Assembly (NCBI RefSeq): GCF_035582795.1
Contig: NC_134390.1
Coordinates: 789,060 to 853,059, forward strand
Length of the DNA stretch: 64,000 bases
Direction: 5' to 3'
DNA from: Mycteria americana
Lineage: Eukaryota; Chordata; Aves; Ciconiiformes; Ciconiidae
In this document: piece by piece, positions 32,501 through 64,000 of the stretch
Layout: every line of letters starts with the position of its first letter
Position numbering within the stretch: position 1 is the first letter of the stretch
Made by a program: the position numbers and the translations under genes
The notes under the pieces: generated by a model
Databases searched by the model: none
The model's input: only the letters and a program-made list of their open reading frames with translations
What the model was told of the DNA's origin: nothing

Positions 32501-32788
<288 letters not shown>

Positions 32789-33958: not shown

Positions 33959-34336
<378 letters not shown>

Positions 34337-34842: not shown

Positions 34843-35127
<285 letters not shown>

Positions 35128-41196: not shown

Positions 41197-41249
41197 GTTT
41201 GGATGCCTCTGCTCAAACCACCTCTCATGAACTCACCATTCCAAATGAT
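41197..41249 (+). CDS. PCBP2: PCBP2 exon before KH3
   Basis: LDASAQTTSHELTIPND between aagcag and gtgagt. Confidence 0.96.
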
Positions 41250-41624: not shown

Positions 41625-41849
<225 letters not shown>

Positions 41850-43046: not shown

Positions 43047-43374
43047 TTTAGAAAGCGCTAAACCCTCCTCCCAGGCAGCCTCCGTCACGATCCCTGACCA
43101 CCTCAGCATCAACCTCTCTCAACCCTCCACCCCTTCTTCTTCTTCCTCCTCCACCACCACCCCCTCGCTCGCCACAGCGGGGGCCTCCGAAGCACCCGCC
43201 AGCCTCCCCAACCCTCTTCCGACTGCCCCTTGTGTCTCCAGTCTGCTTGGCATGAAACCTGTCCCTCTCCTGGCTCTAAATGTTGTGTCTGCTGCTAAGG
43301 GTACCTCCGCTCCAGCTGTGCCATGTGTCACTAACAAACTGAAAGCGGAAAAGCAGAGATTTTCTCCTTACTGA
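43047..43374 (+). CDS. PCBP2: PCBP2 alternative terminal exon A (long tail)
   Basis: Acceptor ctgttacag. Joined to the KH3 exon it reads SLESAKPSSQAASVTIPDHL, a Ser/Thr/Pro-rich stretch, then LLGMKPVPLLALNVVSAA and KLKAEKQRFSPY with TGA, giving about 456 residues in total. The frame, stop and two AATAAA signals behind it (43775, 43865) make a complete 3' exon. The end resembles the PCBP4 tail (KPMPFLAL..., AERQKFSPY) as I recall it. Confidence 0.88.
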
Positions 43375-43890
43375 GTCTGCTTGTGGCCTTAGAGGACCAG
43401 CAGATCGGTGGCAGCATGGAGACCCCGTAGAGGAGACTTGGAAGAGCAATTTTTTTTCTCTCTCTTTTTTTTTTTTTTTCATTGGGTTTGGTTTTTTTGT
43501 TTTTCTCCTCCTCCTCCTTTTTACTCCAAAGTGAGCTTGTGATGTTTCTTAGAACGGAGTTTTCTTGCCGGCCGAGAGACGATTTTCCCTGTGTCCCAGC
43601 CCGGCCTGGAGTCTAGTGATCTGTTCAATTCCTTCTCGATCCTGCTATCTTGTAGCCGTTGCTTTTTTTTTCCTCCTCTTTTTTTTTTCCTTTTTTTTTT
43701 TTAGTAGCTTGGTTGCAGTCGCGGTTTTGGGGAGAGGGTGGGGAGGGGGGGTGGAGGGAGGGGTTTCGTTACCGAATAAACGAGTTGGGATTTAATTGCG
43801 TTCCTGGTGACGTTGCCCATGGGGCTCGCGGCCTCGCCTGTCTCTCTTTAATGTCTGTACCTGTAATAAAGTTGCCACGGTGAGAATCTG
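43375..43890 (+). other. PCBP2: PCBP2 3'UTR of terminal exon A
   Basis: T-rich UTR ending after AATAAA signals at 43775-43780 and 43865-43870. Confidence 0.75.
43865..43870 (+). promoter_or_regulatory. PCBP2: Proximal PCBP2 polyadenylation signal
   Basis: ctgtaataaagttgcc, the second of two AATAAA hexamers (the first at 43775) behind terminal exon A. Confidence 0.75.
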
Positions 43891-44643
43891 CTCTGCTAGA
43901 TCTGTGCTGACGGGGGGGGCTGAGCCCCGGGGAGGGGGCCTCACGGGGTGCCCTCTTGCTGGGGGGGGCTCACTGCCACCCAGATTGGGGTTGCCCCCCC
44001 CCCCCTCCAAATTGCAGGGAGGGAGACGCTTTGAGCCGCGGAGGTGGCAGCTCCTGGGGACGCTTGGTGCGGGTTGGGGGTGCTGGTGTTGTCCCTGCTT
44101 GCTCGGGGACCCCCTTTGCATTGTGTGTGTGCCCCCCCCCCCCCCCCCCCCCCATGCTCCCCAGGGGGTCCCTGGTGGGGGTACAGCCCCCCAACCCCTT
44201 GCTCTCTCCCTTCCCTGCAGGAATCGCTGCCTAATCCCTGTCTGCCCGCACCCTGGGGTGCCCAGGGCGCTTCGGGGTCCCCCTTCCCCTGGGTGTCCCC
44301 ACCCCAAAAGCTTTGCCCCGCTGGTGCGCTCGGTCTGGATGTGTCCCTCCCCGGCAGAGCTCTGGGGGGGAGCCCTCCGCCTCCACTTTGGGGGGGGCAA
44401 TCGGGGGCGGGGGGGGGCCAGCAGGCTGCACCCTCCTCCTTGCCGCACCTTCCCCGCCGCTTGTGCGCAAAGCAACCCCCCTGCACCCCAAAAACCTCCT
44501 CCCTTCCCTCCTTGGGGGGGGGTCCGTCCCTCCTCCAGGGCACTCCCTCTGGGGAAGCCCTTCCTCCCCTGCACCTCACCCCTCCTCTTCCTCCTCGCCC
44601 CCCCAAACCGGGGCCCCCTCTGACGCCCTTTTCTTCATTGCAG
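43891..44643 (+). other. PCBP2: PCBP2 last intron between terminal exons
   Basis: G/C-rich unique sequence with C runs (44131-44152). No coding exon is seen. It would be removed only in transcripts using the distal terminal exon. Confidence 0.65.
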
Positions 44644-44680
44644 GCTCTCCTCGGAGACCGGGGGCATGGGAAGCAGCTAG
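44644..44680 (+). CDS. PCBP2: PCBP2 canonical terminal exon B
   Basis: Acceptor cattgcag. The exon completes Arg and gives LSSETGGMGSS and TAG, identical to the human PCBP2 C-terminus. Confidence 0.95.
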
Positions 44681-45140
44681 GGGCCCCGACGCGGACCCTC
44701 GGCCTCACCTCACCATCCATCTGTGTAGTCCCTTAGCAGCCAGCCCCAGGTTTTAACTAGTTTGTAAATTTTTCGGTTCCTCCATGCTCTCCGCGGCCAC
44801 TCATGAGGTTTTTTTTTTTTTTTGTTTTGGTTTTTTTTGTTTGGTTTTTTTTTTTTTTTTAATTACAGCATTTTAATTCCTTTCTCCGTTCAGCTGTTAA
44901 AACGCTGAGCCCCAGATCTTAGTTTTATAAAGCTTCTCTCTCTCTCCTCCCTGCCCCTCCCCTCACCCCACCCCCCCCACCCCCCACCCCACCCCCCCCC
45001 CTTTTTTCGGCTCATGAAGTTTCTGTTTTGTCATGAAATGTAAGAGTGGAAGAGAAACATTTCAGTTTAGTTCTGTAACGTCAGGAAATTTTTCAAAAAA
45101 AAAAATTAATAAAAAGATGGACTGGAGCTTTTCCTTGTGA
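44681..45140 (+). other. PCBP2: PCBP2 3'UTR of terminal exon B
   Basis: T-rich (44810-44860) and C-rich (44960-45002) UTR ending after AATAAA at 45108-45113. Confidence 0.8.
45108..45113 (+). promoter_or_regulatory. PCBP2: Distal PCBP2 polyadenylation signal
   Basis: attaataaaaagatgg. Cleavage is expected near 45125-45140. Confidence 0.75.
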
Positions 45141-45169
45141 ATAGAAACTGGAGGATATTTTGGTTAATG

Positions 45170-45890
45170 GATCTGCCTGTCTCCGTCTTTATTTGAACTC
45201 CCCCCCCACCCCACCCTGGTTCTGCCCAGTGCTCCCAGTATGATTTGGGTTCTCTCTGGGGGTGGAATGGAGCCCCCAGGCTGGATAAACCACTCCCTAG
45301 GGGGGGTCTCTGATACTCCAGCTGCATTTTGGGGGTTTCTCTACCTCTCCCAGTGCCCTACAAACTGGTCTTTAATGGAAACCAGTATCCCAGCTGCTTA
45401 TTACTCTCTGCCTCTTCCCCCCTCCACTCCAAAATCCACCTGGGATCTTCCTTTGCTTCAGGGGGGGGAGAGCAATTGTGCCCCCCCTTTCCCCCTGGGG
45501 CTCCAGCACTGGCTCTCTATCACCACCCAGTGCTCCCAGTTCCACCAGTAAAAAAGGGGGGGACTGTAGGGGGGGCTCAGCCCCTTATAAGCCCCCCCCC
45601 CCCAAAGGATCCCCTGGCCTGTCTTGGGGAGACAGGTCCTCTCTCTGGGGTGGGGGCTATTACAGTAGGGCCTACAGAAACACAAGAGGGAGACAGAGAA
45701 CCTCTATCCCTGTTCTCCCCCCCCCCCCCCCAAATAACCCCCAGTGCCCCCTCCCTCAGTCCTGTGTCCCCCCCCCCCAGGCAGAGAGACAGCACAGAGC
45801 TTTCTGTAGAGATCGATAGATATTTATATAAATATTTGGGGCTGTACAAGTGGGGGGGTGTGCAAGGGGGTGGGGGTGGGGGGGCACAGG
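45170..45890 (-). other. MAP3K12: MAP3K12 3'UTR
   Basis: About 0.7 kb of unique sequence, ending by inference shortly after the - strand AATAAA at 45188-45193. Confidence 0.65.
45188..45193 (-). promoter_or_regulatory. MAP3K12: MAP3K12 polyadenylation signal
   Basis: AATAAAG on the - strand (tttatt on +). Its cleavage zone (about 45158-45173) lies within tens of bases of the PCBP2 3' end. Confidence 0.6.
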
Positions 45891-45983
45891 TCACAGGCCG
45901 GGGGGGGCTGTGGGCCGGGGGGGTCCCTCGCCGCTGCCTGAGTGGTCCAGCTCCGCGCTGTCGCAGTCTGAGTCCTCGGAGAC
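45891..45983 (-). CDS. MAP3K12: MAP3K12 terminal coding exon
   Basis: 31 codons including TGA, after a CCCCCAG acceptor. VSEDSDCDSAELDHSGSGEG matches human NSEDSDCDSTELDNSNS; the final GPPRPTAPPGL is diverged. Confidence 0.92.
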   Translation of the reverse strand, partial: VSEDSDCDSAELDHSGSGEGPPRPTAPPGL

Positions 45984-46129
45984 CTGGGGGGGGGGGGGGG
46001 GAGACAAACATAAAGGGGGGGTTAAACATCCTCAGAGCCTCTCCCTGCCCCCCCACAGCTGGTCCTGGGGGGCTTGGGGACCCCCCCTTCTGTGGGGCAG
46101 AGCCCTGAGAACACCCCCCCCCCCTGAAA

Positions 46130-47300
46130 ACCAGTCCTAGGGGACCCCCTCCCCATGGCCCCTGGTATTTGGGGGATCCCCTCCCCATAGTGTCTGCCTC
46201 TGGGGGCCTTGAGGCCCCTCTCCCCAAGCTGCTACATCCTGGGGGGCTTGCAAGACCCCCCCCGGCATGGTACCCAGTGCTGGGGGGACCCCCTCCCCAT
46301 GGTACTTGGTCCTGGGGGGGCTCTGGGCCCCCTTCCCCATGGTACTTGAGCTTGGGGTCTCATTCTGGGGGGGGTGGGGGGGCTCACAGGGCCCCTCCCC
46401 ATGGTATCTTGTCCTTGGGGGGGGGCTCAGGGGACCCCCTCCCCTTGTTGTGCATCCCGGGGGGGCTTTGGGGGACCCCCCTCCCCATAACATCTGATTT
46501 TGGGGGGGCCCCGCTCTCGCATGGTATCTGGTCTTGGGGGGGGCTCTGGGCACCCCTTTCCTGTAGTACAAGGTCTTGAGCAGAACCTCATGGGGACCCT
46601 CCCCATGGTACCTGGTCCTGGGGGGCCCTGGGGGACCCCTCCCCATGGTACCTGGTCCTGGGGGACCCCTCCCCATGGTCCTTGTCCCTGGGGGGGGCCC
46701 CTGGGGACACCCTCCCACTGATGCTTTATTCTGAGACCTCCCTGCCCATGGTACCAAGTCCTGGGGGACCCCTCGCCTATCGCACGTGGTCTTGGGGACC
46801 CCTGCAGCCCCCCCCCCCGGTGCTTAGTACTGGGGGACCCCTCCTCGTGGTTTCTGGTCCTGGGGACCCCCCCCTCCTCATAGTAACCATCCCTAGGGGA
46901 CTCGGGGGACCCCTTTCCCTCTGCTACCCCATGGTGGGGAGCCCTGGTGTCCATCCCTGGGGGGCTCCAGGACCCTCCTAGAAGACCCACTCCCTTGGTC
47001 TTGGGGGGGGGGTCTCTGCCCCCCCCTTTCCCCTTGTTACCTTGCCATAGGGGGCTCACAAGACTCTTCCCCATAGTACCTCATCCTGGGGGCCACTGGG
47101 GAGGCCCCCTCCCCAAGATTCCTGGTGCTGGGGAGCCCTTGAGACCCCCGGCCTATGATGTCCACCCTTGGGGGGGCCCGGGACATCACCCCCTCCCCCT
47201 GGTACTTGATCCTGGGGGGCTCTGGGGACCCCCTTCCCCATTGTAACCTGGTCCTGGCATCCTCAGTGGGACACCCCTGCCCCATGGAGGAGGACTCCTC
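46130..47300 (-). repeat. Degenerate repeats, MAP3K12 last intron, part 1
   Basis: Units of roughly 40-60 bp with ccctccccatggtacctggt and cctggggggnnctgggg on the + strand. Diverged; no coding content. Confidence 0.8.
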
Positions 47301-48780
47301 CCTCCTTCCCCTGGCTAACCCCATCCTGGGGGGCTCAGGGGACCCCTACCCCATAACACCCAGCCCTGGGGGACCCTAGGGATCCCCCCCCCCCCGCCCA
47401 TGGTACCCAGCCCTGGGGGCCCTGTGACCCCCTTCCCCTTGCTAACCCCATCCTGGGGGGGCTCAGGGGACCCCTACCCCATAATACCCAGCCCTGGGGG
47501 ACCCTAGGGATCCCTCATCCCATGGTACACAGCCTTGGGGTCCTGGGGACCCCCCCCTTCCCCTTGCTAACCCCATCCTGGGGGGGCTCAGGGGACCCCT
47601 ACCCCATAATACCCAACCCTGGGGGAGCCTAGGGATCCCCCCCACTCCATGGTACCCATCCCAGGGGGCCCCGGGGACCCCCTTTCCCTTGCTAACCCCA
47701 TGGTGGGGGGGCTCAGGGGATCCCTACCCCACAGTACCCCGCCCTGGGGGACCCTAAGGACCCCCCCAGTCCATAGTACCAAGCCCTGGGCCACCCTAGA
47801 GCCACTTCCCCTTGCTAATCCTGTCCTGAGGGGCTCAGGGGACCCCCTCCCCCATAATACCAAGCCCTGGGGGACAGATGGGACCCCCCCACCCACCCCA
47901 CCCCACGGTACCCATCCTTGCGGGCCCTGGGGACCCCCCTTCCCCTTGCTAACCCCAGCCTGAGGGGCTCGGGGACCCCTACACCATGGTACCAAGCCCT
48001 GAGGGACCCTATGGGTTCCCCCCCCCCCAGCCCGTGCTACCCAGCCCTGGGGGCCTTGGGATCCCCTTCCCCTTGCTGACCCTGTCCTGGGGGGCTCAGG
48101 GGAACCCCCACCCCATAATACCAAGCCCTGGGGGACCCTAGGGACCCCCCAGCCCATGGTACCCAGGCTTTGGGGACCCTAGGGACCCCCTACCCTATAA
48201 TACCAAGCCCTGGGCGACCCTAGGGACCCCCCCACCCCATAATACTCAGCCCTGGGGGACCCTAGGGACCCCCCAGCCCATGGTACCCAGGCTTTGGGGA
48301 CCCTAGGGACCCCCGACCCCATAATACCAAGCCCTGGGGGACCCTAGGGACCCCCCCCCACCCCCTAATACTCAGCCCTGGGGGACCCTAGGGACCCCCC
48401 AGCCCATGGTACCCAGGCTTTGGGGACCCTAGGGACCCCCTATCCCATAATACTCAGCCCTGGGGGACCCTAGGGACCCCCCAGCCCATGGTACCCAGGC
48501 TTTGGGGACCCTAGGGACCCCCTACCCCATAATACCAAGCCCTGGGCAACCCTAGGGACCCCCCACCCCATAATACTCAGCCCTGGGGGACCCTAGGGAC
48601 CCCCCAGCCCATGGTACCCAGGCTTTGGGGACCCTAGGGATCCCCCCCCCCCCCATAATACTCAGCCCTGGAGGCCCCGGGGACCCCCTTCCCCTCACTA
48701 ACCTCGTCCTGGGGGACCTTAGGGACCCCCACCCCATAGTACCAGCCCTGGGGGACCCTAGGGCCCCCCCCCTATGCTAC
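47300..48780 (-). repeat. Minisatellite with gaccctagggacccccc, MAP3K12 last intron, part 2
   Basis: About 25 units of 55-62 bp alternating cagcccatggtacccaggct, ttggggaccctagggacccc and cccataataccaagccctgg. The palindrome ccctaggg recurs in most units. Confidence 0.92.
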
Positions 48781-48871
48781 CCATCCCTGGGACCACCCCA
48801 CCCCATGGTGCCACCCATCCCTGCGGGCCTGCGGGTGCTCCCCAGCACCCACCCCAGGGTGGGGGCATCAC

Positions 48872-49133
48872 CTTGGGGCTGAGCCCCCCGTGACGGCGGC
48901 CGGGACCCTCGGGGGGGGCGGCATCCAGGGGGATCTCGGAGCCCTGGGAGAGCAGGTCCTCGGAGCGGTCGTCGGGACGCTCGTCCGTGTTGGTGCTGCC
49001 CACGTCGGGGGTGGCACTGTGCGAGGGCTCGCTCGTGTGCCCCTCGTCCCCGTCCCCGTCCCCGTCCCCGTCCGAGAAGTTCTCCGAGCTGAAGGTCGAC
49101 AGCGACTGGCGCTTGCTCATGCCTGGGGGCCAC
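48872..49133 (-). CDS. MAP3K12: MAP3K12 exon with Asp-Gly hexanucleotide run
   Basis: 262 nt, acceptor tcccag, donor gtgatg. It encodes [20 protein letters not shown] and [34 protein letters not shown] hexanucleotide run encodes [10 protein letters not shown] where human has only DGEEG. Confidence 0.94.
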
Positions 49134-49179
49134 CTGGGATGGGTTGGGTGGGGGGGGGGGTGAGGACCCACAGACCCCC

Positions 49180-50300
49180 TCCTGCACCCATCCTGAGCAT
49201 CTGGGCACCCACTGAACTCCTGCACCCATCCTGGGCATCCAACCACCCAGGGACTCCCCTGCACCCATCCCAGGCATCTGAGCACCCATGGACCCCCACC
49301 ACCACCACCCATCCTGGGCACCCAGCCACCCATGGACACTCCTGCACCCATCTCAGGTGTCTGAGCACCCATGGACCCCCACCACCACCACCCATCCTGG
49401 GCACCCAGCCACCCATGGACACTCCTGCACCCATCCCAGGCATCTGAGCACCCATGGACCCCCACCACCACCACCCATCCTGGGCACCCAGCCACCCATG
49501 GACACTCCTGCACCCATCTCAGGTGTCTGAGCACCCATGGATGCCCACCACCACCCCCCATCCTGGGCATCCAACCACCCAGGGACTCCCCTGCACCCAT
49601 CCCAGCCATCTGAGCACGCATGGATCCCCACCACCACCACCCATCCTGGGCATCCAACCACCCATGGACCCTCCTGCACCCATCCCAGGTGTCTGAGCAC
49701 CCATGGATCCCCACCACCACCATCCATCCTGGGCACCCAACCACCCATGGACCCCCCTGCACCCATCTCAGGCATCTGAGCACCCATGGATCCCCACCAC
49801 CACCACCCATCCTGGGCATCCAGGCACCCATGGACCCTCCTGCACCCATCTCAGGCGTCTGAGCACCCATGGACCCCCACCACCACCACCCATCCTGGGC
49901 ATCCAGGCACCCATGGACCCTCCTGCACCCATCTCAGGCGTCTGAGCACCCATGGACCCCCACCACCACCACCAATCCTGGGCACCCAACCAGCCAGGGA
50001 CTCCCCTGCACCCATCCCAGCCATCTGAGCACCCATGAATCTCCACCACCACCACCCGTCCTGGGCACCCAACCACCCATGGACCCCCCTGCACCCATCC
50101 CAGCCATCTGACCACCCATGGATCCCCACCACCACCACCCACCCTGGGCATCCAACCACCCAGGGACTCCCCTGCACCCATTCCAGGTGTCTGAGCACCC
50201 ATGGATCCCCACCACCACCACCCATCCTGGGCACCCAACCACCCATGGACCCTCCTGCACCCATCTTGGGCTTCTGAACACCCATGGACACCCTCCACCC
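49180..50300 (-). repeat. 83-bp minisatellite, MAP3K12 intron
   Basis: About 13 very regular copies of an 83-bp unit with gagcacccatggaccccc, accaccaccacccatcctgg and cccctgcacccatctcagg on the + strand, continuing in degenerate form to 50560. G-rich on the gene's coding strand. Confidence 0.95.
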
Positions 50301-50614
50301 GCACACATCCTGGGCTTCCAACCACCCACGGCCTCCTCCCTGCAGACATCCTGGCTGTCTGAGCACCCATGGACCTCCCCCACGCACCCATCCCAGGCAT
50401 CTGGGCACCCACCGACCCCCTGCACCCATCCTGGGCTTCCAAGGACCCGTAGACACCCCTCCTGCACCCATCCTGAGTGTCTGAGCACCCCCGGACCCCC
50501 ACCTCCACACACAGCCTGGGTGTCCAAGCACCCCCTTGCACCCACGCCAGGTGTCCGAGCACCCAGGGACCCCCAAACGGACCGAGGTATCTGGGGGAGG
50601 GGGTCAGCACCCAC

Positions 50615-50685
50615 CTCTGCCGCAGCGGCAGCTCCACCTCGCTGTCCACTTCACCCTCCTCCTCCTCCGACGAGACCCCCCGCTT
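50615..50685 (-). CDS. MAP3K12: MAP3K12 exon, acidic box
   Basis: 71 nt, acceptor cccccag, donor gtgggt. KRGVSSEEEEGEVDSEVEL, as in human KRGISSEEEEGEVDSEVEL, then PLRQ. Confidence 0.95.
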
Positions 50686-50734
50686 CTGGGGGCAGAGGGG
50701 GGGGGGGGCATTGGGGTCCTCCCACTGCCCCTCG

Positions 50735-51310
50735 GGAGGGACCCAGGGGTCCTGACCCCCCCAGGATGGACCCAAGGGTCCTGCCCCCCCCCCCTCGGGA
50801 GCGACCCAGGGGTCCTGACCCCCCCAGGATGGACCCAAGGGTCCTGCCCTCCCCTCCTCAGGAGGGACCCAGGGGTCCTGACCCCCCCAGGATGGACCCA
50901 AGGGTCCTGGCCCCCCCCCCCTCGGGAGCGACCCAGGGGTCCTGACCCCCCCAGGATGGACCCAAGGGTCCTTCCCCCCCCCCCCCGGGAGGGACCCAGG
51001 GGTCCTGACCCCCCCCGGATGGACCCAAGGGTCCTGCCCCCCCCCCCCCGGGAGGGACCCAGGGGTCCTGACCCCCCCAGGATGGACCCAAGGGTCCTGC
51101 CCCCCCCCCCCCTCGGGAGCGACCCAGGGGTCCTGACCCCCCCAGGATGGACCCAAGGGTCCTGCCCCCCCCTCTCGGGAGCGACCCAGGGGTCCTGACC
51201 CCCCCAGGATGGACCCAAGGGTCCTTCCCCCCCCCCCCGGGAGGGACCCAGGGGTCCTGACCCCCCCAGGATGGACCCAAGGGTCCTGCCCCCCCCTCCT
51301 CAGGAGGGAC
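50735..51310 (-). repeat. About 60-bp minisatellite, MAP3K12 intron
   Basis: About ten copies of a unit with gggacccaggggtcctgacc, ccccaggatggacccaaggg and tcctgcccccccc. C-run length varies between copies, so assembly may be unreliable here. Confidence 0.93.
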
Positions 51311-51449
51311 CCCTGTGTCTGACCCCCCCCTCCAAACCCCTTCCCCGAAGGCATCCGTCCCCCTCCCCACTGCTGGGATGGACCTGGGGGTCCTGTCCCC
51401 CCCCCCAGCCCCCCCCCCAAAAAGGGACCCAGGCGTCCACGGCTCTCAC

Positions 51450-51897
51450 CTGCCCACGGGTGACGGCCGCCCGGTACAGCAGTGCCGCGGGGGTGAGGTG
51501 CTGCCCGGCCCCCGCTTTCCCCCCCCGGCCGGCCCCGCTCTCCCGCTCGGGCTCACCGGGAGCCGGGGGCCGTGGCGGGGGGGACCCTTGGGTGCCCGTC
51601 GCCCCCCCAGCTCCCGCATCAGGTACCGCAGCTGGGGGGGCACCCGTAGCCTCCAAGGTGCCCCCGAGGAGGTCGGGACCGGCAGCGGTTGGAGGGGGTC
51701 CGGGCAGTCCCCGGGGGGGTCCGGCCTCAGGGCCCAGGTCCCCGCAGCCCCCCCGGGGTCCCGCTTTGCGATGGCGGCCCTTGGCCCGGCGGCTGCGCCC
51801 GGGCGAGGGGGGGCCCTTGGGGCACCCTGGCAGGGCCACCTGCGCCATGGCCGCATCCAGCTTGGGCAGCAGCACCTCCGGCTTCAGGATGTCGGGC
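51450..51897 (-). CDS. MAP3K12: MAP3K12 exon, Gly/Pro-rich region
   Basis: 448 nt, 149 whole codons. It starts [20 protein letters not shown], continues through [16 protein letters not shown], then a diverged Gly/Pro/Ala-rich middle, and ends [18 protein letters not shown]. The two ends are close to human; the middle is shorter and low-complexity. Confidence 0.93.
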
Positions 51898-51939
51898 CTG
51901 GGGGGGGGACGGGAGGGGGGGGGACATGGGGAAGGGCTG

Positions 51940-52440
51940 CGGACGGGGACCCAGGCGTCCGGGAGCCCCTGGAATACCCCCCACCCAGCCAGGAGGGACC
52001 CCCATGTCCAGACCCCCCCTAAGGACCCCCCCCTCCAAGGGACACTGGCATCTGCACCCCCAGAACATGCCCCCCTCCCCCTCAAGGGACCCCAGGCATC
52101 TGCACCCCTGGACACCCCCCCAGCCCAAAGGACCCCAGGCATCAGCACCCCCCAGAGCCCCCCCACCCTAAAGGACCCCAGCACCCCGTTTCCCAGCCCC
52201 CTGTCCCCAAAGGACCCCAGGGCACTCGAGCCCCCAGACCCCCGCCCCCCAAAGGACCCACGTGTCCAGGCTCCCAGCCCCCCAAGGACCCATACGTCCA
52301 TGTCCCCAGACACCCCCTCCCTCACCCTGGGGGACCCACACCATGCCCCCCCCCCCTTCAAAGCACCCAGGCATCCAAACCCCCAGACCCCCCCCCACCC
52401 CAAAGGACCCAGGATTCACCCACCCGCCTGCCCGCCCCCC
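51940..52440 (-). repeat. Degenerate short repeats, MAP3K12 intron
   Basis: Loose repeats of about 45-55 bp with aaaggaccccaggcatc and tgcacccccagacccccc. No gene content. Confidence 0.7.
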
Positions 52441-52467
52441 CCCGAGGGACCCAGGTGATGGGCGCAC

Positions 52468-52605
52468 CGCTTGCCGTGGGGCGAGAGCTTCTGGGGGACG
52501 TTGCGTTTCTTGATGAGGGTCTCGACGGCGTTGCCGTGCAGGAGCCCCCGTGGCGCCCGTGGCTTGAAGAGTCCAGGGTAACGCTTCTCCAGCGCCTGCT
52601 CCCGC
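52468..52605 (-). CDS. MAP3K12: MAP3K12 exon after the zippers
   Basis: 138 nt, acceptor gtggcag, donor gtgcgc. It encodes [40 protein letters not shown] and SPHGK, collinear with human. Confidence 0.95.
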
Positions 52606-52659
52606 CTGCCACGGGCCACGCGTGGGCACCCGCACCCAGGGACGCGGCATGGGGTGGCG

Positions 52660-53900
52660 TGGCCACGGCCTTGGGGTGGTGGCCACGGGGTGGGTAAGGG
52701 CTGGCCATGGGCTCAGGGTAGCCATGGGGTGGGTATATGGGTGGTCTTGGCCGTGGGGTGGATACAGGGTTGGCTGTGGCCATGAGGTGGGTACAGCGTT
52801 GGCTGTGGCCATGGGGTAGATATAGGATTGGCCGTGGCCGTGGGGGGGATATAGAGTTGGTTGTGGCCACGGGTTGGCCATGAGATGGCTATAGGGTTGG
52901 CCATGGCCATGGGGTAGATACAGGCTTGGCCATGGCCATGAGATGGCTATAGGGTTGGCCACGGCCATGGGGTAGATACAGGCTTGGCCATGGCCATGAG
53001 ATGGCTATAGGGTTGGCCATGGCCATGGGGTAGATACAGGCTTGGCCATGGCCATGAGATGGCTATAGGGTTGGCCATGGCCATGGGGTAGATATAGGGT
53101 TGGCCATGGCCATGGAGTGGCCATCAGGTGGATATAGGGTTGGTCACGGCCATGGCGTAGATATAGGGTTGGCTGTGGCCATGGGGTGGCTATAGAATTG
53201 GCCATGGCTATGGGGTGGATATAGGGTTGGCCATGGCCATGGGGTGGCCATGGGATGGATACAGGGTTGGCTATGGCCATGGGGTGGCTATGGGGTGGCC
53301 AAAGGTTTGGCCATGGCCATGGGGTGGCCATAAGGTTGGCCATGGCCATGGAGTTGGCCATCGCTATAGGTTTGGTCGTGGCCGTGGGGTGACCATAGGG
53401 TAGATATAGGATTGGCCATGGCCAGGGGTGGCCATAAGGTTGGCCATGGCCATGGAGTTGGCCATCGCTATAGGTTTGGCCGTGGCCGTGGGGTGGCCAT
53501 AGGGTAGATATAGGATTGGCCATGGCCAAGGGTGGCCACAAGGTTGGCCATGGCCATGGAGCTGGCCACAGCTATAGTGTTAGCCACAGCCATGGGGTGG
53601 CCATAGGGTAGATATAGGATTGGCCATGGCCAGGGGTGGCCACAAGGTTGGCCATGGCCATGGAGCTGGCCACAGCTATAGCGTTAGCCACAGCCGTGGG
53701 GTGGCCATAGGGTAGATATAGGATTGGCCATGGCCATGGGGTGGCCATAAGGTTGGCCATGCTCATGGAGTTGGCCATCACTATAGGTTTGGTCGTGGCC
53801 GTGGGGTGACCATAGGGTAGATATAGGATTGGCCATGGCCATGGGGTGGCTATAGCATTGGCCACAGCAATGGGGCAGCCATGGGGTGGGTATAGGGGGC
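52660..53900 (-). repeat. Minisatellite of ggttggccatggccatgggg type, MAP3K12 intron
   Basis: Short units (39-60 bp) with ggccatggccatggggtggc and catagggtagatatagg. Larger blocks of about 100-130 bp recur near 53390-53830. It stops about 35 bp from the zipper exon. Confidence 0.92.
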
Positions 53901-53939
53901 GCTGGGGGGTGCTGGGGGGCGCTGGGGGTGCCCGCTCAC

Positions 53940-54056
53940 CTGAGCAGCTCCTTCTCCTTGAGCTCCAGCTGCAGCATGAGGGCGCTGAGCTCCATGTAGA
54001 GGTTGTTGGCGCGCTCCAGCTTGCGCTCATAGTGCTCCCTGATGTCCAGCGCGTGC
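53940..54056 (-). CDS. MAP3K12: MAP3K12 exon, leucine zipper 2
   Basis: 117 nt, acceptor tgccag, donor gtgagc. It encodes [20 protein letters not shown] and [18 protein letters not shown] with heptad leucines. Confidence 0.95.
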
Positions 54057-54301
54057 CTGGCACCCGGGGCACGCGGGGCGTTGGCACGCACGGCACCCCA
54101 CGGCACCCCACGGCGCCCCACGGCGCCCCACGGCGCCCGCCACACACAAGGACAGGCACCCAACAGCCCTCCCTGTACCCCAGCACCCCCTGATACCTCC
54201 TGCCCCTGGTCCCCCCACCACGTCCCTTGATGCCCCAGTGTCCCCCTGTCCCTGGCGTCCCCCTGCCCCTGGCGTCCCCCTGCCCCGTGGACGGGCCCCA
54301 C

Positions 54302-54411
54302 CGGAGCTCCTCGCGCCGGCGGTTGATGAGCTCCTCCTCCAGCCGGTGCAGACACGTCCCCTCCGACTTGATCTTCTCGAAGTGCAGCTTCACCTCCTCC
54401 CGCCACTCCGC
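54302..54411 (-). CDS. MAP3K12: MAP3K12 exon, leucine zipper 1
   Basis: 110 nt, acceptor tgccgcag, donor gtgggg. It encodes [18 protein letters not shown] and [16 protein letters not shown], the start of the zipper/coiled-coil region used for dimerisation. Confidence 0.95.
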
Positions 54412-54419
54412 CTGCGGCA

Positions 54420-54780
54420 CACGGGCACCGGCTACCACGGGCACCGGGCGCTGGCTACCACGGGCACCGGCTACCACGGGCACCGGGCACCCCGGGCACC
54501 AGCTACAGCAGGCACGGGGCATGCTGGGCCCCGGCTACCGAGGACACCAGGCACCCCAGGCACCGGCTACCACGGGCACCGGGCACCCCGGGCACCGGCT
54601 ACAGCAGGCACGGGGCATGCTGGGCTCCGGCTACCAAGGACACCGGGCACCCCAGGCACTGGCTACCACGGGCATCAGGCACCCCAGGCAGCGGGCACCT
54701 TGGGCACCGGCTACTGGCTAGCACCAGGCACCCCGGGCACCGGCTACCAGTTAGGACCAGGCACCCTGGGCTCCAGCTAC
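54420..54780 (-). repeat. Short ggctaccacgggcaccgg repeats next to 48-bp array
   Basis: Diverged 15-24-bp units (ggcaccggctaccacggg) directly beside the zipper exon. They grade into the 48-bp array. Confidence 0.8.
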
Positions 54781-56360
54781 CTTGTGCACCGGTTGCCACA
54801 GGCATTGGGCACCCTGGGCACCGGTTGCCACAGGCACTGGGCACCCTGGGCTCCGGCTACCCTGGGCACCGGTTGCCACAGGCACTGGGCACCCTGGGCT
54901 CAGGCTACCCTGGGCACCGGTTGCCACAGGCATTGGGCACCCTGGGCTCAGGCTACCCTGGGCGCTGGTTGCCACAAGCACTGGGCACCCTGGGCACCGG
55001 CTACCTTGGGCACCGGTTGCCACAGGCACTGGGCACCCTGGGCACCGGCTACCCTGGGCACCGGTTGCCACAGGCATTGGGCACCCTGGGCTCAGGCTAC
55101 CTTGGGCACCGGTTGCCACAGGCACTGGGCACGCTGGGCTCCTGCTACCCTGGGCACCGGTTGCCACAGGCATTGGGCACCCTGGGCTCAGGCTACCTTG
55201 GGCACCAGTTGCCACAGGCACTGGGCACCCTGGGCTCAGGCTACCTTGGGCACCGGTTGCCACAGGCACTGGGCACCCTGGGCTCAGGCTACCCTGGGCA
55301 CCGGTTGCCACAGGCACTGGGCACCCTGGGCTCAGGCTACCTTGGGCACCGGTTGCCACAGGCACTGGGCACCCTGGGCTCGGGCTACCTTGGGCACCGG
55401 TTGCCACAGGCATTGGGCACCCTGGGCTCCTGCTACCCTGGGCACCGGTTGCCACAGGCACTGGGCACCCTGGGCTCAGGCTACCTTGGGCACCGGTTGT
55501 CACAGGCACTGGGCACCCTGGGCTCCGGCTACCTTGGGCACCGGTTGCCACAGGCACTGGGCACCCTGGGCACCGGCTACCTTGGGCACCGGTTGCCACA
55601 GGCACTGGGCACCCTGGGCTCCGGCTACCTTGGGCACCGGTTGCCACAGGCACTGGGCACCCTGGGCTCAGGCTACCTTGGGCACCGGTTGCCACAGGCA
55701 TTGGGCACCCTGGGCACCGGCTACCTTGGGCACCGGTTGCCACAGGCACTGGGCACCCTGGGCTCCGGCTACCTTGGGCACCGGTTGCCACAGGCACTGG
55801 GCACCCTGGGCTCCGGCTACCTTGGGCACCGGTTGCCACAGGCATTGGGCACCCTGGGCACCGGCTACGTTGGGCACCGGTTGCCACAGGCATTGGGCAC
55901 CCTGGGCTCAGGCTACCCTGGGCACCGGTTGCCACAGGCACTGGGCACCCTGGGCACCGGCTACCTTGGGCACCGGTTGCCACAGGCACTGGGCACCCTG
56001 GGCTCAGGCTACCTTGGGCACCGGTTGCCACAGGCATTGGGCACCCTGGGCACCGGCTACCTTGGGCACCGGTTGCCACAGGCACTGGGCACCCTGGGCT
56101 CAGGCTACCTTGGGCACCGGTTGCCACAGGCATTGGGCACCCTGGGCACCGGCTACCTTGGGCACTGGTTGCCACAGGCACTGGGCACCCTGGGCTCCGG
56201 CTACCTTGGGCACCGGTTGCCACAGGCACTGGGCACCCTGGGCTCCGGCTACCTTGGGCACCGGTTGCCACAGGCATTGGGCACCCTGGGCTCCTGCTAC
56301 CCTGGGCACCGGTTGCCACAGGCATTGGGCACCCTGGGCACCGGCTACCTTGGGCACAAG
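54780..56360 (-). repeat. 48-bp minisatellite, MAP3K12 intron
   Basis: About 33 copies of a 48-bp unit containing ggcaccggttgccacaggca and ctgggcaccctgggctccgg, then ctacctt. Because 48 is divisible by 3, frames stay open over the whole array without being coding. Confidence 0.96.
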
Positions 56361-57304
56361 ACACCCCAGGCACCCTGGGCACTGCATTACCTGGGTGCAG
56401 CTACTCTAGGCACTGGGATATACTGGGCACAGCTACCCTGAGCACTGGGATACACTGGGCATGGATGCCCTGGGCACCGGCTACTGTGGGCACCAGTTGC
56501 GCCAGCACCAGCCCTCACAGTCACTGGCATTTGAAGCAGGTCTCCTGTGGGGTTTGGGGGTACCAGGGTGCGGGGGGGGTCCCTGGGTGCTGGGTATGCT
56601 GGGGGTCTTGGGGTGCTGGGGCCCCGGGGTGCTGGGTACTGGGGATTTGGAGTAGGTCTCCTGCAGGGTTTGGGGGTCCCAGGGTACTGGGGGGTCCCTG
56701 GGTGCCAGGGGTCCTGGGGTTCTGGGGTCCCATGGTGCTGGGAGTCCTGGGGTGCTGGGGGGTCCCAGGATGCTGGGGGTCTTGGGGTGCTGGGTATCAT
56801 GGGGGGGGTCCCTGTGTGCCAGGGGTCCCGGGGTTCTGGGGTCCCAGGGTGCTGGGAGTCCTGGGGTGCTGGGGGGTCCCAGGGTGCTGGGGGGTCCCAG
56901 GATGCTGGGGGTCCTGGGGTGCTGGGTATCATGGGGGGGGTCCCTGTGTGCCAGGGGTGCCAGGGTTTTGGGGTCCCATGGTGCTGGGAGTCCTGGGGTG
57001 CTGGGGGGTCCCAGGGTGCTGGGAGTCCTGGGGTGCTGGGGGGTCCCAGGGTGCTGGGGGGTCCCAGGATGCTGGGGGTCCTGGGGTGCTGGGTATCATG
57101 GGGGGGGTCCCTGTGTGCCAGGGGTGCCAGGGTTTTGGGGTCCCATGGTGCTGGGAGTCCTGGGGTGCTGGGGGGTCCCAGGGTGCTGGGGGGTCTCGGG
57201 GTGCTGCGATATCCCAGGGGTCCTGGGGCGCTGGGGGTCCCAGGGGTCTTGGGGGCCCTGGGGTGCTGGGGGTCCCGGGGGGTCCCTGGGTGCTGGGGGT
57301 CCCA

Positions 57305-57340
57305 GGTGCTGGGTACCTGGGATTTGAAGTAGGTCTCCTG
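57305..57340 (-). repeat. Copy 1 of MAP3K12 exon end plus splice donor
   Basis: Identical over 36 bp to 58104-58139, the end of the kinase-terminal exon and its donor. On the - strand an acceptor-like ccctgcag precedes it and gtaccc follows, framing 21 nt (57317-57337) that would read ETYFKSQ. Confidence 0.9.
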
Positions 57341-57794
57341 CAGGGTTTAGGGGTCCCAGGGTACTGGGGGGTCCCTGGGTGCCAGGGGTCCCGGGGTTCT
57401 GGGGTCCCATGGTGCTGGGAGTCCTGGGGTGCTGGGGGGTCCCAGGATGCTGGGGGTCCTGGGGTGCTGGGTATCGTGGGGGGGTCCCTGTGTGCCAGGG
57501 GTGCCAGGGTTTTGGGGTCCCATGGTGCTGGGAGTCCTGGGGTGCTGGGGGGTCCTAGGGTGCTGGGGGTCCTGGGGTGCTGGGTATCGTGGGGGGGTCC
57601 CTGTGTGCCAGGGGTGCCAGGGTTTTGGGGTCCCATGGTGCTGAGAGTCCTGGGGTGCTGGGGGGTCCCAGGGTGCTGGGGGGTCTCGGGGTGCTGCGAT
57701 ATCCCAGGGGTCCTGGGGCGCTGGGGGTCCCAGGGGTCTTGGGGGCCCTGGGGTGCTGGGGGTCCCGGGGGGTCCCTGGGTGCTGGGGGTCCCA

Positions 57795-57830
57795 GGTGCT
57801 GGGTACCTGGGATTTGAAGTAGGTCTCCTG
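57795..57830 (-). repeat. Copy 2 of MAP3K12 exon end plus splice donor
   Basis: Same 36-bp segment, 490 bp from copy 1, again flanked by ccctgcag and gtaccc (potential 21-nt microexon 57807-57827). Confidence 0.9.
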
Positions 57831-58115
57831 CAGGGTTTAGGGGTCCCAGGGTACTGGGGGGTCCCTGGGTGCCAGGGGTCCCGGGGTTCTGGGGTCCCAT
57901 GGTGCTGGGAGTCCTGGGGTGCTGGGGGGTCCCAGGATGCTGGGGGTCCTGGGGTGCTGGGTATCGTGGGGGGGTCCCTGTGTGCCAGGGGTGCCAGGGT
58001 TTTGGGGTCCCATGGTGCTGGGAGTCCTGGGGTGCTGGGGGGTCCCAGGGTGCTGGGGGGTCTCGGGGTGCTGGGGTATCCCAGGGGTCCCAGGGGGTCC
58101 CTGGGTGCTGGGTAC

Positions 58116-58224
58116 CTGGGATTTGAAGTAGGTCTCCTGGGGGGTGGAGAGGACGTCGGCGGAGGCGATGTCGAGGTGCAGCAGGATCTGGCGGAAGGAC
58201 GGCCGGTTCCGGGGCTTGCTGTTC
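58116..58224 (-). CDS. MAP3K12: MAP3K12 exon, end of kinase domain
   Basis: 109 nt, acceptor ccccgcag, donor gtaccc. It encodes [36 protein letters not shown]. The last 24 bases of this exon and its donor are duplicated inside the downstream intron (57305-57340 and 57795-57830). Confidence 0.96.
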
Positions 58225-58359
58225 CTGCGGGGAGCGGGCACGACGCTGGGCGCAGGCGGGGGGGGCAGCTGGGTGCTAGGGGGGTGCTGAGGCTTTTTGG
58301 GACCGCGGGCAGAGAAGGGTGCACAGGACACGTGAGGTGCCCAAGGAGCAGGGGTGCCC

Positions 58360-59810
58360 GGGGTGCAGCCTGGCATGGGGTGCCCACGGGCAACACCCCC
58401 CAGGGTGGGGACACCCCCAGGGTGGGTGTCCCTATGAGCGGGGGTCCCCCCTGCACCCCACATTGGGGTGCCAATGGCAGGTCCCTCATGGTGGTCCCTA
58501 CAGTGGGGTGCCCATGGTGGGGTCCCCCATGGGATGACTCCACCCTGGCATGGGTGCCCATGGCGTGTCCCCGGGCGAGGTGTCCCCAAAGTGGGGTGTC
58601 CCCACAGGATGTCCCCAGCTGGGGTGTCTCCAGACAGGGTGTCCCCATGGTGAGGTGTCCCCATGGCGAGGTGTCCCCATGGCGTGGCCCCATGGCGGGA
58701 TGTCCCCATGGTGAGGTGTCCCCATGGCGTGGCCCCATGGCAGGGTGTCCCCAGGCAGGGTGTCCCCACAGTGGGGTGTCCCCACAGGATGTCCCCAGGT
58801 GGGGTGTCCCCAGGCAGGGTGTCCCCATGGTAGGGTGTCCCCACAGGATGTCCCCAGGTGGGGTGTCCCCAGGCAGGGTGTCCCCATGGTGAGGTGTCCC
58901 CATGGCGAGGTGTCCCCATGGCGTGGCCCCATGGCGGGATGTCCCCACGGGGTTTCCCCCTGGTGGAGTGTCCCCATGGTGTGGCCCCATGGCAGGGTGT
59001 CCCCATGGTGAGGTGTCCCTGCAGGGTGTCCCCATGGCGTGGCCCCCCCCATGGCATGGCCCCATGGTGGGATGTCCCCACGGGGTTTCCCCATGGTGCA
59101 GTGTCCCCGTGATGTGGCCCCATGGCAGGGTGTCCCCATGGCGAGGTGTCCCCATGGCATGGCCCCATGGCAGGATGTCCCCACGGGGTTTCCCCATGGT
59201 GGAGTGTCCCCGTGATGTGGCCCCATGGCAGGGTGGCCCCATGGTGAGGTGTCCCTGCAGGGTGTCCCCATGGCGTGGCCCCCCCATGGCATGGCCCCAT
59301 GGTGGGATGTCCCCATGGGGTTTCCCCATGGTGCAGTGTCCCCGTGGTGTGGCCCCATGGCAGGGTGTCCCCATGGCGAGGTGTCCCCATGGCGTGGCCC
59401 CATGGCGGGATGTCCCCACGGGGTTTCCCCATGGTGGAGTGTCCCCGTGATGTGGCCCCATGGCAGGGTGTCCCCATGGTGAGGTGTCCCGGCAGGGTAT
59501 CCCCATGGCGTGGCCCCCCCCATGGCATGGCCCTATGGTGGGATGTCCCCATGGGGTTTCCCCATGGTGCAGTGTCCCCGTGGTGTGGCCCCATGGCAGG
59601 GTGTCCCCATGGTGAGGTGTCCCCATGGCGTGGCCCCATGGCGGGATGTCCCCACGGGGTTTCCCCATGGTGCAGTGTCCCCGTGGTGTGGCCCCATGGC
59701 AGGGTGTCCTCATGGTGAGGTGTCCATGGCAGGGTATCCCCATGGCGTGGCCCCCCCACGGCGTGGCCCCATGGCGGGATGTCCTCACGGGGGGTGTCCA
59801 CGCGGGCGCG
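58360..59810 (-). repeat. Minisatellite of gtgtccccatggcgtggccc type, MAP3K12 intron
   Basis: Units of 17-50 bp (gtgtccccatggtgaggtgt, ggccccatggcgggatgtcc, cacggggtttccccatggtg) are assembled into blocks of about 100 and 235 bp. Most regular from 58900 to 59780. Confidence 0.93.
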
Positions 59811-59815
59811 CTCAC

Positions 59816-59974
59816 CAGCACTGGCGCAGCAGCACCTTGAAGCCGTCGGGGCAGCCGGAGGGGACGGGCAGGTGGAGGCTGTTGCTGCCCACCCCCCAGA
59901 TGATGGCCGAGGAGTCCACGTCCTTGTAGGGGATCTCGCCCGTCAGCAGCTCCCACAGCACCACCCCGAAGGAC
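59816..59974 (-). CDS. MAP3K12: MAP3K12 exon, kinase C-lobe
   Basis: 159 nt, acceptor cccccag, donor gtgagc. It encodes [38 protein letters not shown] and FKVLLRQC. Confidence 0.96.
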
Positions 59975-59989
59975 CTGGGGGCACCGGCC

Positions 59990-60380
59990 CCCGCGGCCCC
60001 CGTCACCCACGGCTGGACACCCCCGGTGTCTTCCCGCTGTCCCTTGGTCCCCCTTGCCCTTGCCCCGGTGTCCCCTCCCCTCCCTGCCTCTGCCCATGCT
60101 GGTGTCCCCGATGTCCCCCATCCCTGTCCCTGCAATGTCCCTCCCAGTATCCCCAGTGTCCCCATCTCTGGTCCCCCCAGTGTCCCTCATACCCCTGAGG
60201 CTCATGTGTCCCCAAGCGTCCCAGGTGTCCCCCCAGTGCCCCCTGTTCCTATTGTCCCCAATGTCCCCAGTGTCCCCATTGCCTCCCAAAGCTCCCCGTG
60301 GTGCTGTGTCCCCAGTGCCAACACAGCTCCCTGGTGTCCCTAAGGTTCCCAATGTCCTCAATGTCCCCAAGGTCCCTGTG
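59990..60380 (-). repeat. Weak gtccccagtgtcccc repeats, MAP3K12 intron
   Basis: Irregular 10-20-bp repeats around gtccccaatgtccccagtg. No gene content. Confidence 0.6.
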
Positions 60381-60387
60381 TCCTCAC

Positions 60388-60546
60388 CAGATGTCAACCT
60401 TCTCGGAGACGGGCTCGTTGCGAATGACCTCGGGTGCCATCCAGGCCACGGTGCCGGCGAAGGACATCTTGGTGCTCTTGTCAATGAGCTCCTTGGAGGT
60501 GCCGAAGTCCGAGATCTTCACCACGTCATCATAGGTGATGAGCATG
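60388..60546 (-). CDS. MAP3K12: MAP3K12 exon, DFG to APE
   Basis: 159 nt, acceptor cccccag, donor gtgagg. It encodes [38 protein letters not shown] and EKVDI. The activation-loop Ser/Thr residues are conserved. Confidence 0.96.
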
Positions 60547-60559
60547 CTGGGGGGCACCC

Positions 60560-61240
60560 GCTCAGCGCCACGCCAGCGCCACGCCAATGACACGGGCACG
60601 GCACTGCCACGGGCATGCAACTGCTACGAGCGTCATCGGGTCACGGGCACGCCAGCGCCATGGGCACAACACCATCACGGACGTGGCACCACCACAGCGT
60701 CAACGTGGACGCGGCACCACCGTGGGCATGGCACCGTCATTTGCATGCGACTGCCATGAGCATGGTCCTGTTGCGGGCACGCCACCACCACGATGCCACC
60801 ACCATGAGCGTGGCATCACCGCAGTCATGCATTGCTACGGGCACGGAACCACCGTGGGTATGGCACTGCCATGGACATACAACCGTCACGGACACGCAAC
60901 CACCAAGGTCATTGCATTGCCATGGGCACAACACCGTTGTGGACACATCAATGCCATGGACACGCAGCCACCATAGACATGGCACTGCTATGGTGGGCAT
61001 TGCGTCACCACGGGCATTGCATCACCACGGGCATAGCACGGCCACGGCACCACCAAGGACATGGCACCGCTACGGACACGGCACCATGGGCACGCAACTG
61101 TCACCGACACGCAGCCACCGAGGACAACGTACCACCACGGGTATGGCGCTGCCACGATCACGCAACTGCCACATGCACGTCCCCGCTACGGGCACGGCAC
61201 CACCATGGGCACACCACCGCCTGGGACGCCCACCCCAGCA
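60560..61240 (-). repeat. Short cacgggcacggcaccacc repeats, MAP3K12 intron
   Basis: Diverged units of about 18 bp (gccacgggcatggcaccacc) fill the intron. Older-looking than the neighbouring arrays. Confidence 0.8.
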
Positions 61241-61276
61241 CCCACGGGTGCTCCCCGAGCCCCCATCCCCGCTCAC

Positions 61277-61468
61277 TTGGGTGACTTGAGGTCGCGGTGG
61301 ATGATCTTGTGGAGGTGCAGGTAGTTCATGCCGCCGGCGATGCCCATGGACCAGTCGACGAGGAGGGAGGGGGTGACCTTGCGCCCGGCGCGCAGCACCT
61401 CGTAGAGCTGGCCCTGGGCGCAGAACTCCATGATGATGCAGTAGCAGGGTGCCTGGGTGCACACACCC
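61277..61468 (-). CDS. MAP3K12: MAP3K12 exon, hinge to catalytic loop
   Basis: 192 nt, acceptor cccgcag, donor gtgagc. It encodes [38 protein letters not shown] and [10 protein letters not shown]. Confidence 0.96.
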
Positions 61469-61539
61469 CTGCGGGCACAGCAGCACCCTCAGCACCCGCT
61501 GCCCGGTCAGCCGGGGCACCCAGCGGCACCCGGGCACCC

Positions 61540-61830
61540 AACGGTATTGGGGCACCCAACTTCACCAGGGCACTTGTGAGCACCCATCTGCACCGGGACA
61601 CTTGGCTGCACCCAGGTACCTACCAGCACCCATCAGTGCTGGAGCACCCATCTGCACCCAGACCCCCCTGTTAGCACTAGGAGCACCCACAGGCACCCCT
61701 CTGCACCCAGACACCCGGTAGCGCTGGGATACTGGGGCAACCATCTGAACTGGGGCACCCATCTGCACCCGGGCACCCATCAGTGCCAGAGCGCTGGGGC
61801 ACCCATCTGCACCCACATCGCTCTGCCCCG
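61540..61830 (-). repeat. gcacccatctgcacc repeats, MAP3K12 intron
   Basis: Diverged units of about 18-30 bp with ggcacccatctgcacccgg. The array passes into the next, larger one after a short unique stretch. Confidence 0.75.
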
Positions 61831-61979
61831 AGAGTGCCCTGTCTGTGACAAACTTGTCCCGTGTGGGGCTGTCACCTGTGTCACACGTGGGACGTGCCAG
61901 TGTGCCCCGTGTCCGTGCCGTGTCCTGTCCACCCAGGTCCGTGCCGTGCTGGTGTTCCCCATGCACATGCCGTGTTGGT

Positions 61980-63250
61980 GTCCCATGCCCATGTCCTATC
62001 CGTGACCCCTAGGCCTGTGTCCATGGCATGTCCACGCCCAACTCCATGCCACGTTCATGCTCATGCCCATGCCATGTCCGTGCCCTGTGCCCATGGTGTT
62101 CCCCAAGCCCCATGACCATGGCTTGCACATGGCATGTCCATGCCTCATGCTGCGTTCATGCCCATGGCATGTCCATGCCTCCATCCCTCATGCCCATGGC
62201 ATGTCCATGTCCATGCCCCATGCTCATGGCATGTCCATACCTCCATCCCTCATGCCCATGGCACGTCCATGTCCATGCCCCATGCCCATGACATGTCCAT
62301 GCCTCCATCCCTCATGCCCATGGCACGTCCATGTCCATGCCCCATGCCCATGGCATGTCCATGCCTCCATCCCTCATGCCCATGGCATGTCCATGTCCAT
62401 GCCCCATGCCCATGCCATGTCCATGCCTCCATCCCTCATGCCCATGGCACGTCCATGTCCATGCCCCATGCTCATGGCATGTCCATGCCCCAGACCACGT
62501 CCATGTGCATGCCATGTCCATGCCCTGTGCCCATGGTGTTCCCCAAGCCCCATGACCATGGCTTGCACATGGCATGTCCATGCCTCATGCTGCGTTCATG
62601 CCCATGCTCATGCCATGCCCATGCCCTCTGCCCATGGTGTCCTTCATGTCCACGGCTTGCCCATGGCATGTCCATGCCCCACACTATGTTCATGCCCATG
62701 GCATGTCCATGCCTCCATCCCTCATGCCCATGGCATGCCCATGTCCATGCCCCGTGCCCATGGCATGTCCACGCCTCCATCCCTCATGCCCGTGGCACGT
62801 CCATGTCCATGCCCCGTGCCCATGGCATGTCCATGCCTCCATCCCTCATGCCCATGGCACGTCCATGTCCATGCCCCATGCCCATGCCATGTCCATGCCT
62901 CCATCCCTCATGCCCATGGCACGTCCATGTCCATGCCCCGTGCCCATGCCATGTCCATACCTCCATCCCTCATGCCCATGGCACGTCCATGTCCATGCCC
63001 CATGCTCATGGCATGTCCATGCCCCATACCATGTCCATGTCCATGCTGCGTCCATGCCCCTGTGCCCATGGTGTTCTCCATGCCCCATGCCCATGGCTCG
63101 CCCATGCCGTGTCCATGCCTTGTGCCCACGGTGTTCCCCGTGACCATGGCTTGTCCATGCCGCATCCACACTCCATGACCGTGGCATGACCACGCTGCAC
63201 GCCGTGTCCATGCTGTGTCCATGCCCCTGGGCTCACGGTGTCCCCATGCC
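61980..63250 (-). repeat. 62-bp minisatellite and larger duplication, MAP3K12 intron
   Basis: Two blocks (62150-62490, 62690-63010) of a 62-bp unit with ggcatgtccatgcctccatc, cctcatgcccatggcacg and tccatgtccatgcccc. A segment near 62100-62170 reappears about 440 bp on (62545-62610), so the field grew by both unit and block duplication. Confidence 0.94.
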
Positions 63251-63304
63251 CATAGCATGTCCACGCCCCACGCCCATGCCGGTGCCGGCAGCACCCACGC
63301 TCAC

Positions 63305-63488
63305 TTGAAGGTGATGATGTTGGGGTGCTTGAGCTTGCGCAGGTGCTTGATGTCGGTCTCCTTGAGGTCCCGCACCTTCTTCACGGCCACCTCCTCACCG
63401 TGGAAGCGGCCCAGGAAGACAGCACCCTGCGCCCCGCTGCCCACCCACTGCAGGTCCAGGATCTCCTCGAATGGCACCTCCCAGGGGT
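63305..63488 (-). CDS. MAP3K12: MAP3K12 exon, kinase N-lobe
   Basis: Acceptor cccacag, donor gtgagc on the - strand. It encodes [36 protein letters not shown] and [10 protein letters not shown]. Contains the ATP loop, catalytic lysine and helix C. Confidence 0.96.
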
Positions 63489-64000
63489 CTGTGGGCACCC
63501 ACGCCCATGGCACCCCCGCATCGGCACCCCCGGTGCACCCACGCCCATGGCACCCCCGCATCGGCACCCCCGGTGCACCCACGCCCATGGCACCCGCATG
63601 CTGGCACGGCCAGGGTGCAGCCCCCCTTGGCACCCTCACCCCAGCCCTACTGCTCCCACCCTGCCCCACTGCACCCCAGCACCCCGCTCCTTGCCCCACT
63701 GCCCCATTACACCCTTCTTCGCCCCATCCCTGTCCCATTGCACCCCTTTCCCTGCCCTATGGCCGCCCCCTTTCCCTCAGCACCCCAGCACCCCTTTCCC
63801 TGTCCCACCGCACCCTCCTTTGCCCCAGTGCACCCTCCCTGCCCCATAGCACCCTCCCACCCCCATAGCATCCTCCTTTGCCCCATAGCACCCTCCCAGC
63901 CCCGTAAGCACCCTCCTGGCCCCCTTGCACCTTCCCGGCCCCCTTGCACCTTCCCAGCCCCATAGCACCCTCCCACCCCCATAGCATCCTCCTTTGCCCC
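63489..64000 (-). other. MAP3K12: MAP3K12 intron up to the window edge
   Basis: It begins with nearly three copies of a 39-40-bp unit (63493-63600: cacccacgcccatggcaccc, cccgcatcggcacccccgg), then irregular ccctgccccatagcaccctc repeats to the edge. No N-terminal exon of MAP3K12 is recognisable. Confidence 0.7.

Follow-up and report, generated by a model that had tools for sequence, protein, structure and literature searches.

A copied exon end and splice donor in an intron of Mycteria americana MAP3K12: a probable case of exon stuttering

The window examined here (the whole 64,000-nucleotide stretch of Mycteria americana DNA) contains exons of MAP3K12, and the tail of one of them, together with material at its splice donor, occurs four more times in the adjacent downstream intron. 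Judging from the sequence, the copies very probably arose by exon stuttering and would be neutral by-products that act at most as occasional decoys. Exon or sequence stuttering was described in 2026 on the dot chromosomes of chicken (Hron et al., PMC12954441). On sequence grounds the MAP3K12 case falls within this recently described and unusual class; it is no new kind of element, and it is a good test case.

The gene lies on the minus strand of the window. MAP3K12, also called DLK, is a nerve-signalling kinase, and the kinase-region protein obtained by joining the exons matched PDB chains named MAP3K12 (5cen and others) with an E value of 6.9e-194 and almost free of differences. The exon of interest, 109 nt at 58116-58224, encodes the end of the kinase domain (NSKPRN...) and ends in phase 0 at CAG/GTACCC. 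The next exon (54302-54411) encodes AEWREEV... at the start of the zipper region and opens at 54411 with GCG GAG TGG. Therefore a 21-nt insertion at this junction stays in frame, and the earlier statement that the 21 nt read as ETYFKSQ in the frame of the adjoining exons is correct. The intron between the two exons, also on the minus strand (54412-58115, 3,704 nt), is 91% tandem repeat by TRF, a coverage of 0.91 compared with 0.05 to 0.87 across the seven other MAP3K12 introns tested. A 48-bp minisatellite of 32 units with 94% matches occupies 54811-56357 within it and is separate from the copies; the exon screen described below produced no match inside this minisatellite.

The source of the copies is a 36-mer at 58104-58139 (minus strand), which consists of the 24 nt at the exon end (CAG plus 21 nt) and 12 nt with the donor GTACCC. 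Two intact copies on the same strand, each identical to the source over 36 bp, lie at 57795-57830 (copy 1) and 57305-57340 (copy 2), with candidate 21-nt exons at 57827-57807 and 57337-57317, respectively. This identity had been noticed in a sequence-only reading of the window and was reproduced here. The same reading had placed two decayed copies further down the intron, and both were found on the minus strand, at 56640-56663 (copy 3) and 56524-56547 (copy 4). Copy 3 reads ETYSKSP, has the donor context CCA/GTACCC and also gave a probe match at 56634-56660. Copy 4 reads ETCFKCQ and lacks a GT where the copied one would be; there is one a base earlier, in CCA/GTGACT.

A 27-base probe taken from the 36-mer was searched against the window with up to 3 mismatches allowed. 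It found 4 matches: the exon, the two exact copies and 56634-56660. The same probe had no match (0/100) in dinucleotide shuffles, and the 24-nt exon tail was matched at 17/24 at best in 100 introns shuffled base by base. When a 345-bp probe was searched against the bird's own genome, with 40/127 candidates scored, the six best matches were all at the MAP3K12 locus, and identity elsewhere was at most 81% among the matches listed, of 179.

The copied block extends beyond the exact match. The sequence-only reading had described a block of 36 bp, which is right for the exact identity; the full block includes about 220 nt of intron or more. The segment 58139-57897, comprising the exon end and about 220 nt of intron, aligned with three gaps to 57830-57520, comprising copy 1 and its following intron; the stretch used ended at 57520. 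The copied block spans the exon border at 58116, and the repeated unit thus consists of the end of the exon, the donor and the beginning of the intron. The unit of copy 3 is 95% identical to that of copy 1 over about 280 bases. Copies 1 and 2 are held by a 490-bp tandem duplication at 57101-58059 (minus strand), in which 57101-57569 differs from 57591-58059 at 2 of 469 positions. They have 401 identical bases in common at offset 490, and upstream of them there is 1 mismatch in 229 positions. Copies 1 and 2 are therefore not independent and go back to one recent event.

The acceptor AG of the candidate 21-nt segment had been taken for part of a new CAG placed in front of the 21-mer. It is not new; it belongs to the exon's own Gln codon CAG at 58137-58139. 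Because this codon begins 24 nt before the exon end, AG and GT automatically stand 21 nt apart in the intact copies.

Two other origins were rejected. Duplication of the whole exon, including mutually exclusive exons, does not apply since only the terminal 22-30 nt of the exon produce intron matches. A full exon copy with an internal deletion does not apply either, because the upstream flank of the copies is, by eye, minisatellite-like and unlike the intron upstream of the exon; in that flank CCCCAAACCCTG is close, again by eye, to the array's CCCCAAAACCCTGGCAC.

The published screen for stuttering was rerun in a simplified form (blastn-short with the dust filter off, gene strand only, minimum match length 20 nt, repeat elements unfiltered). 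The input was 9 MAP3K12 exons, the first and last partial and further exons left out, and the 8 introns between them. Four matches of at least 20 nt were obtained, all between this exon and its adjacent intron. The two intact copies (48.1 bits each) are above the published threshold of 42.1 bits, and the two decayed copies (36.2 bits each) are below it. Twenty shuffles gave 26.3 bits at the highest. For these 9 exons and 8 introns on the gene strand, the other 7 introns had no match and no distal match of at least 20 nt was found.

The part of the article by Hron et al. cited here (PMC12954441) reports copies of an adjacent exon in 236 introns of 115 genes, 190 of these introns being on dot chromosomes. 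The exon parts measure 20-187 bp, with medians of 36 bp for their length and 4 for the number of copies, and the source is at most 1 base from the exon border in >90% of cases. The MAP3K12 source touches the exon border, the exon part is 24 nt and there are 4 copies. As in the published cases (PMC12954441), the edge of a coding exon and its donor are repeated in imperfect direct tandem in an adjacent, repeat-filled intron. The earlier idea that a minisatellite unit had taken in an exon border was right and corresponds to exon stuttering. Unlike the cases in the part of PMC12954441 cited, the intact MAP3K12 copies also carry an AG and are bounded like a 21-nt exon. The words MAP3K and microexon are absent from the main text of PMC12954441, which states for other birds that local repeat expansions occur in some instances. 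Tandem duplication over an exon-intron border with copying of the splice signals is also known from intron gain, as in the Rogers AGGT model and the RdRp gene of potato (PMC4974935). In the potato case, as presented there, a new intron arose in coding sequence, whereas the MAP3K12 copies lie inside an existing intron.

The window belongs to a contig of 2.99 Mb (C26), at most a possible dot chromosome, along which GC and repeat content were patchy. In 20 sampled 10-kb stretches of this contig the median GC content was 0.549, and TRF coverage was ≥0.3 in 1/20. The two 10-kb stretches flanking the window had TRF coverage of 0.71 and 0.13.

A paralogue of MAP3K12, which we take to be its ohnolog MAP3K13, lies on contig C7 (71 Mb) of this genome. 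It has the same exon end (FKSQ/AEW, phase 0), a donor CAG/GTAACT and an intron of 972 nt. The paralogue is free of copies: no exon match of at least 20 nt was found with 4 exons, whose ends are partly approximate, and 3 introns. TRF coverage was 0.4% of 10 kb. An ohnolog on another chromosome without repeats is also the situation reported for PHF8/PHF2 in the cited part of PMC12954441, and MAP3K12 resembles it in having a paralogue elsewhere in the genome without the copies.

Splice sites were scored with a rough matrix of approximate frequencies rather than with a trained program. On this matrix the real donor scored -0.06, the lowest of the 8 placed in MAP3K12 (the others ranged from 0.64 to 7.23), and the donors of the intact copies, being identical to it, scored -0.06 as well. 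The copied acceptor scored 0.26 on the same matrix, above 5/8 placed acceptors including the real one at 54411 (-0.04). With the copies counted, 10/295 AGs and 28/233 GTs of the intron reached the scores of the copies on this matrix. The candidate segment has 21 nt, encodes ETYFKSQ in phase 0, is bounded by AG and GT and contains no stop, and its length is within the limit for microexons (≤51 nt) given in the abstract of PMC12064062. In the intron, no other in-frame, stop-free AG..GT segment of 3-51 nt has both scores at least equal to those of the two intact copies. The two AGs with the highest scores in the intron belong to the copied exon ends CAG/GTACCC at 57806-57807 and 57316-57317 and have GT directly after them. 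These look like recursive splice sites, an appearance that copying of the exon end accounts for, with no function required. On these scores, splicing of the copies is possible.

The intact copies might be alternative microexons of 21 nt that would insert the heptapeptide ETYFKSQ once or twice into the stretch joining kinase domain and zipper, a reading that we regard as highly unlikely. The segment has phase 0, an open frame and both AG and GT, its acceptor exceeds most of those placed, no other in-frame candidate of 3-51 nt is as good, and seven added residues would preserve the helical heptad register. Of the four TGCAG that occur among the 295 AGs of the intron, three precede copies 1-3, and TGCAG resembles the UGC element near 3' splice sites that is bound by SRRM4 (PMC5247714, in the part cited). 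In offering a short in-frame candidate segment with UGC near its 3' splice site, the copies resemble the neural microexons regulated by SRRM4. Any neuronal use of the copies would be presumptive. However, UGC is common, with TGC within 20 nt of 161/295 AGs, the donor is the weakest of 8 on the rough matrix, and a good branch point was not seen by eye. The one paper found for MAP3K12 together with microexons concerns, by its listing, SF3B1 in leukaemia. Among the matches listed for DLK isoforms and for MAP3K12 in birds, nothing concerned the junction 58116/54411.

The microexon reading also gains nothing from sequence divergence. Between copies 1 and 3, 3/24 exon-derived and 11/246 upstream flank positions differ (one-sided p for less divergence 0.97, low power). 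The corresponding values are 2/24 and 11/63 for copies 1 and 4 (p 0.24), the one pair in which the exon part diverges less, and 5/24 and 9/63 for copies 3 and 4 (p 0.86), both one-sided and of low power. Thus in none of three pairwise comparisons, all of low power, were the exon-derived 24 nt significantly less divergent than the flank. When the 12 donor-side bases were included for copies 3 and 4, the core (14/36) was more divergent than the flank (9/63), p 0.007. Copies 1 and 2 are too recent to inform on selection, and maintenance of the exon-derived part by selection finds no support in these sequences. Of the earlier proposal of potential 21-nt microexons, what stands is the possibility in the sequence; significant conservation did not accompany it, nor did a strong donor. 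Instead of functional exons, the copies might be decoy or cryptic splice sites that lower the yield of correct mRNA by donor competition, as a poison exon or as recursive-type AG/GT sites. We consider this unlikely, while giving it more weight than the microexon. The copied donors match the weak real donor exactly, and each directly follows one of the intron's two highest-scoring AGs. An in-frame TAA lies at 57837-57839 (minus strand) just upstream of copy 1. The donors of copies 1 and 2 are 309 nt and 799 nt beyond the exon end, the latter out of frame, and reading on past the exon meets the TAA ahead of the copy 1 donor, so that an extension to this donor would take in the stop. Against decoys, the scores come from a rough matrix, and copies 3 and 4 have lost the donor context. 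An error of assembly in a hard repeat would explain the intact duplicates in another way. The 401 identical bases at offset 490 fit such an error, and Hron et al. caution that local variation in introns of this kind can in part be technical (PMC12954441). The duplication contains two mismatches, and two further copies are diverged and have related flanks, so that a biological array explains the locus more simply; an error could affect no more than the count of 490-bp units. We hold this to be very unlikely.

Exon stuttering is the reading that we prefer, and it would proceed as follows. The first tandem duplication would have had its start at the CAG GAG within the exon and would have carried along the end of the exon, its donor and the first part of the intron. 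Further rounds would have spread the unit down the intron within G+C-rich minisatellite sequence. What the sequence shows is the common structure of the units, the recent 490-bp duplication, the decay of copies 3 and 4 and the paralogue's lack of copies; that slippage or unequal exchange was the cause, and that events took this order, is what we infer. Most likely the spliceosome would join 58116 to 54411 and the copies would be neutral. Rare use of a decoy donor is possible, and an exon using the copy 1 donor would presumably include the stop.

This case offers what appears to be clear stuttering in a conserved signalling kinase, for which the paralogue provides a clean control from within the genome. 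In the part of PMC12954441 cited, copying of an exon edge with its splice site is said to create potential for alternatively spliced transcripts, and 183/192 of such introns differ in length among chickens. Because the MAP3K12 copies are bounded by both splice signals, the published suggestion can be tested directly at one junction. Should the copies be silent, they would exemplify a spliceosome that ignores exact duplicate donors. A bolder generalization, to which we attach very little credence, is that stuttering converts the edge of any exon with an AG near its end into a ready cassette of in-frame microexons. Here the intact copies would then be spliced at some level and their number would vary among individuals, giving DLK with one, two or three ETYFKSQ before the zipper.

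Several features of the surrounding DNA were also recorded. Over the 3.7 kb of the host intron (54412-58115), the G-rich plus strand, which serves as the gene's template, has 18 G-quadruplex-type motifs against 0 on the opposite strand. For comparison, the two strands have 3 and 1 such motifs in 1-12000 and 12 and 11 in 30001-44000. The bias in the host intron is in line with the replication-stress idea put forward by Hron et al. in the cited part of PMC12954441. Within the window TRF coverage was 0.47 in 12001-30000 and 0.55 in 44001-64000, compared with 0.01 in 1-12000 and 0.00 in 30001-44000; stuttering-like sequence is thus patchy within 64 kb. Ten open reading frames of the window were compared with Pfam: 7 had no family and 2 were kinase pieces. 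The remaining one, at 8796-9602 on the plus strand and outside the repeat-rich part, contains a C2H2 zinc finger (PF00096, E 3.6e-6).
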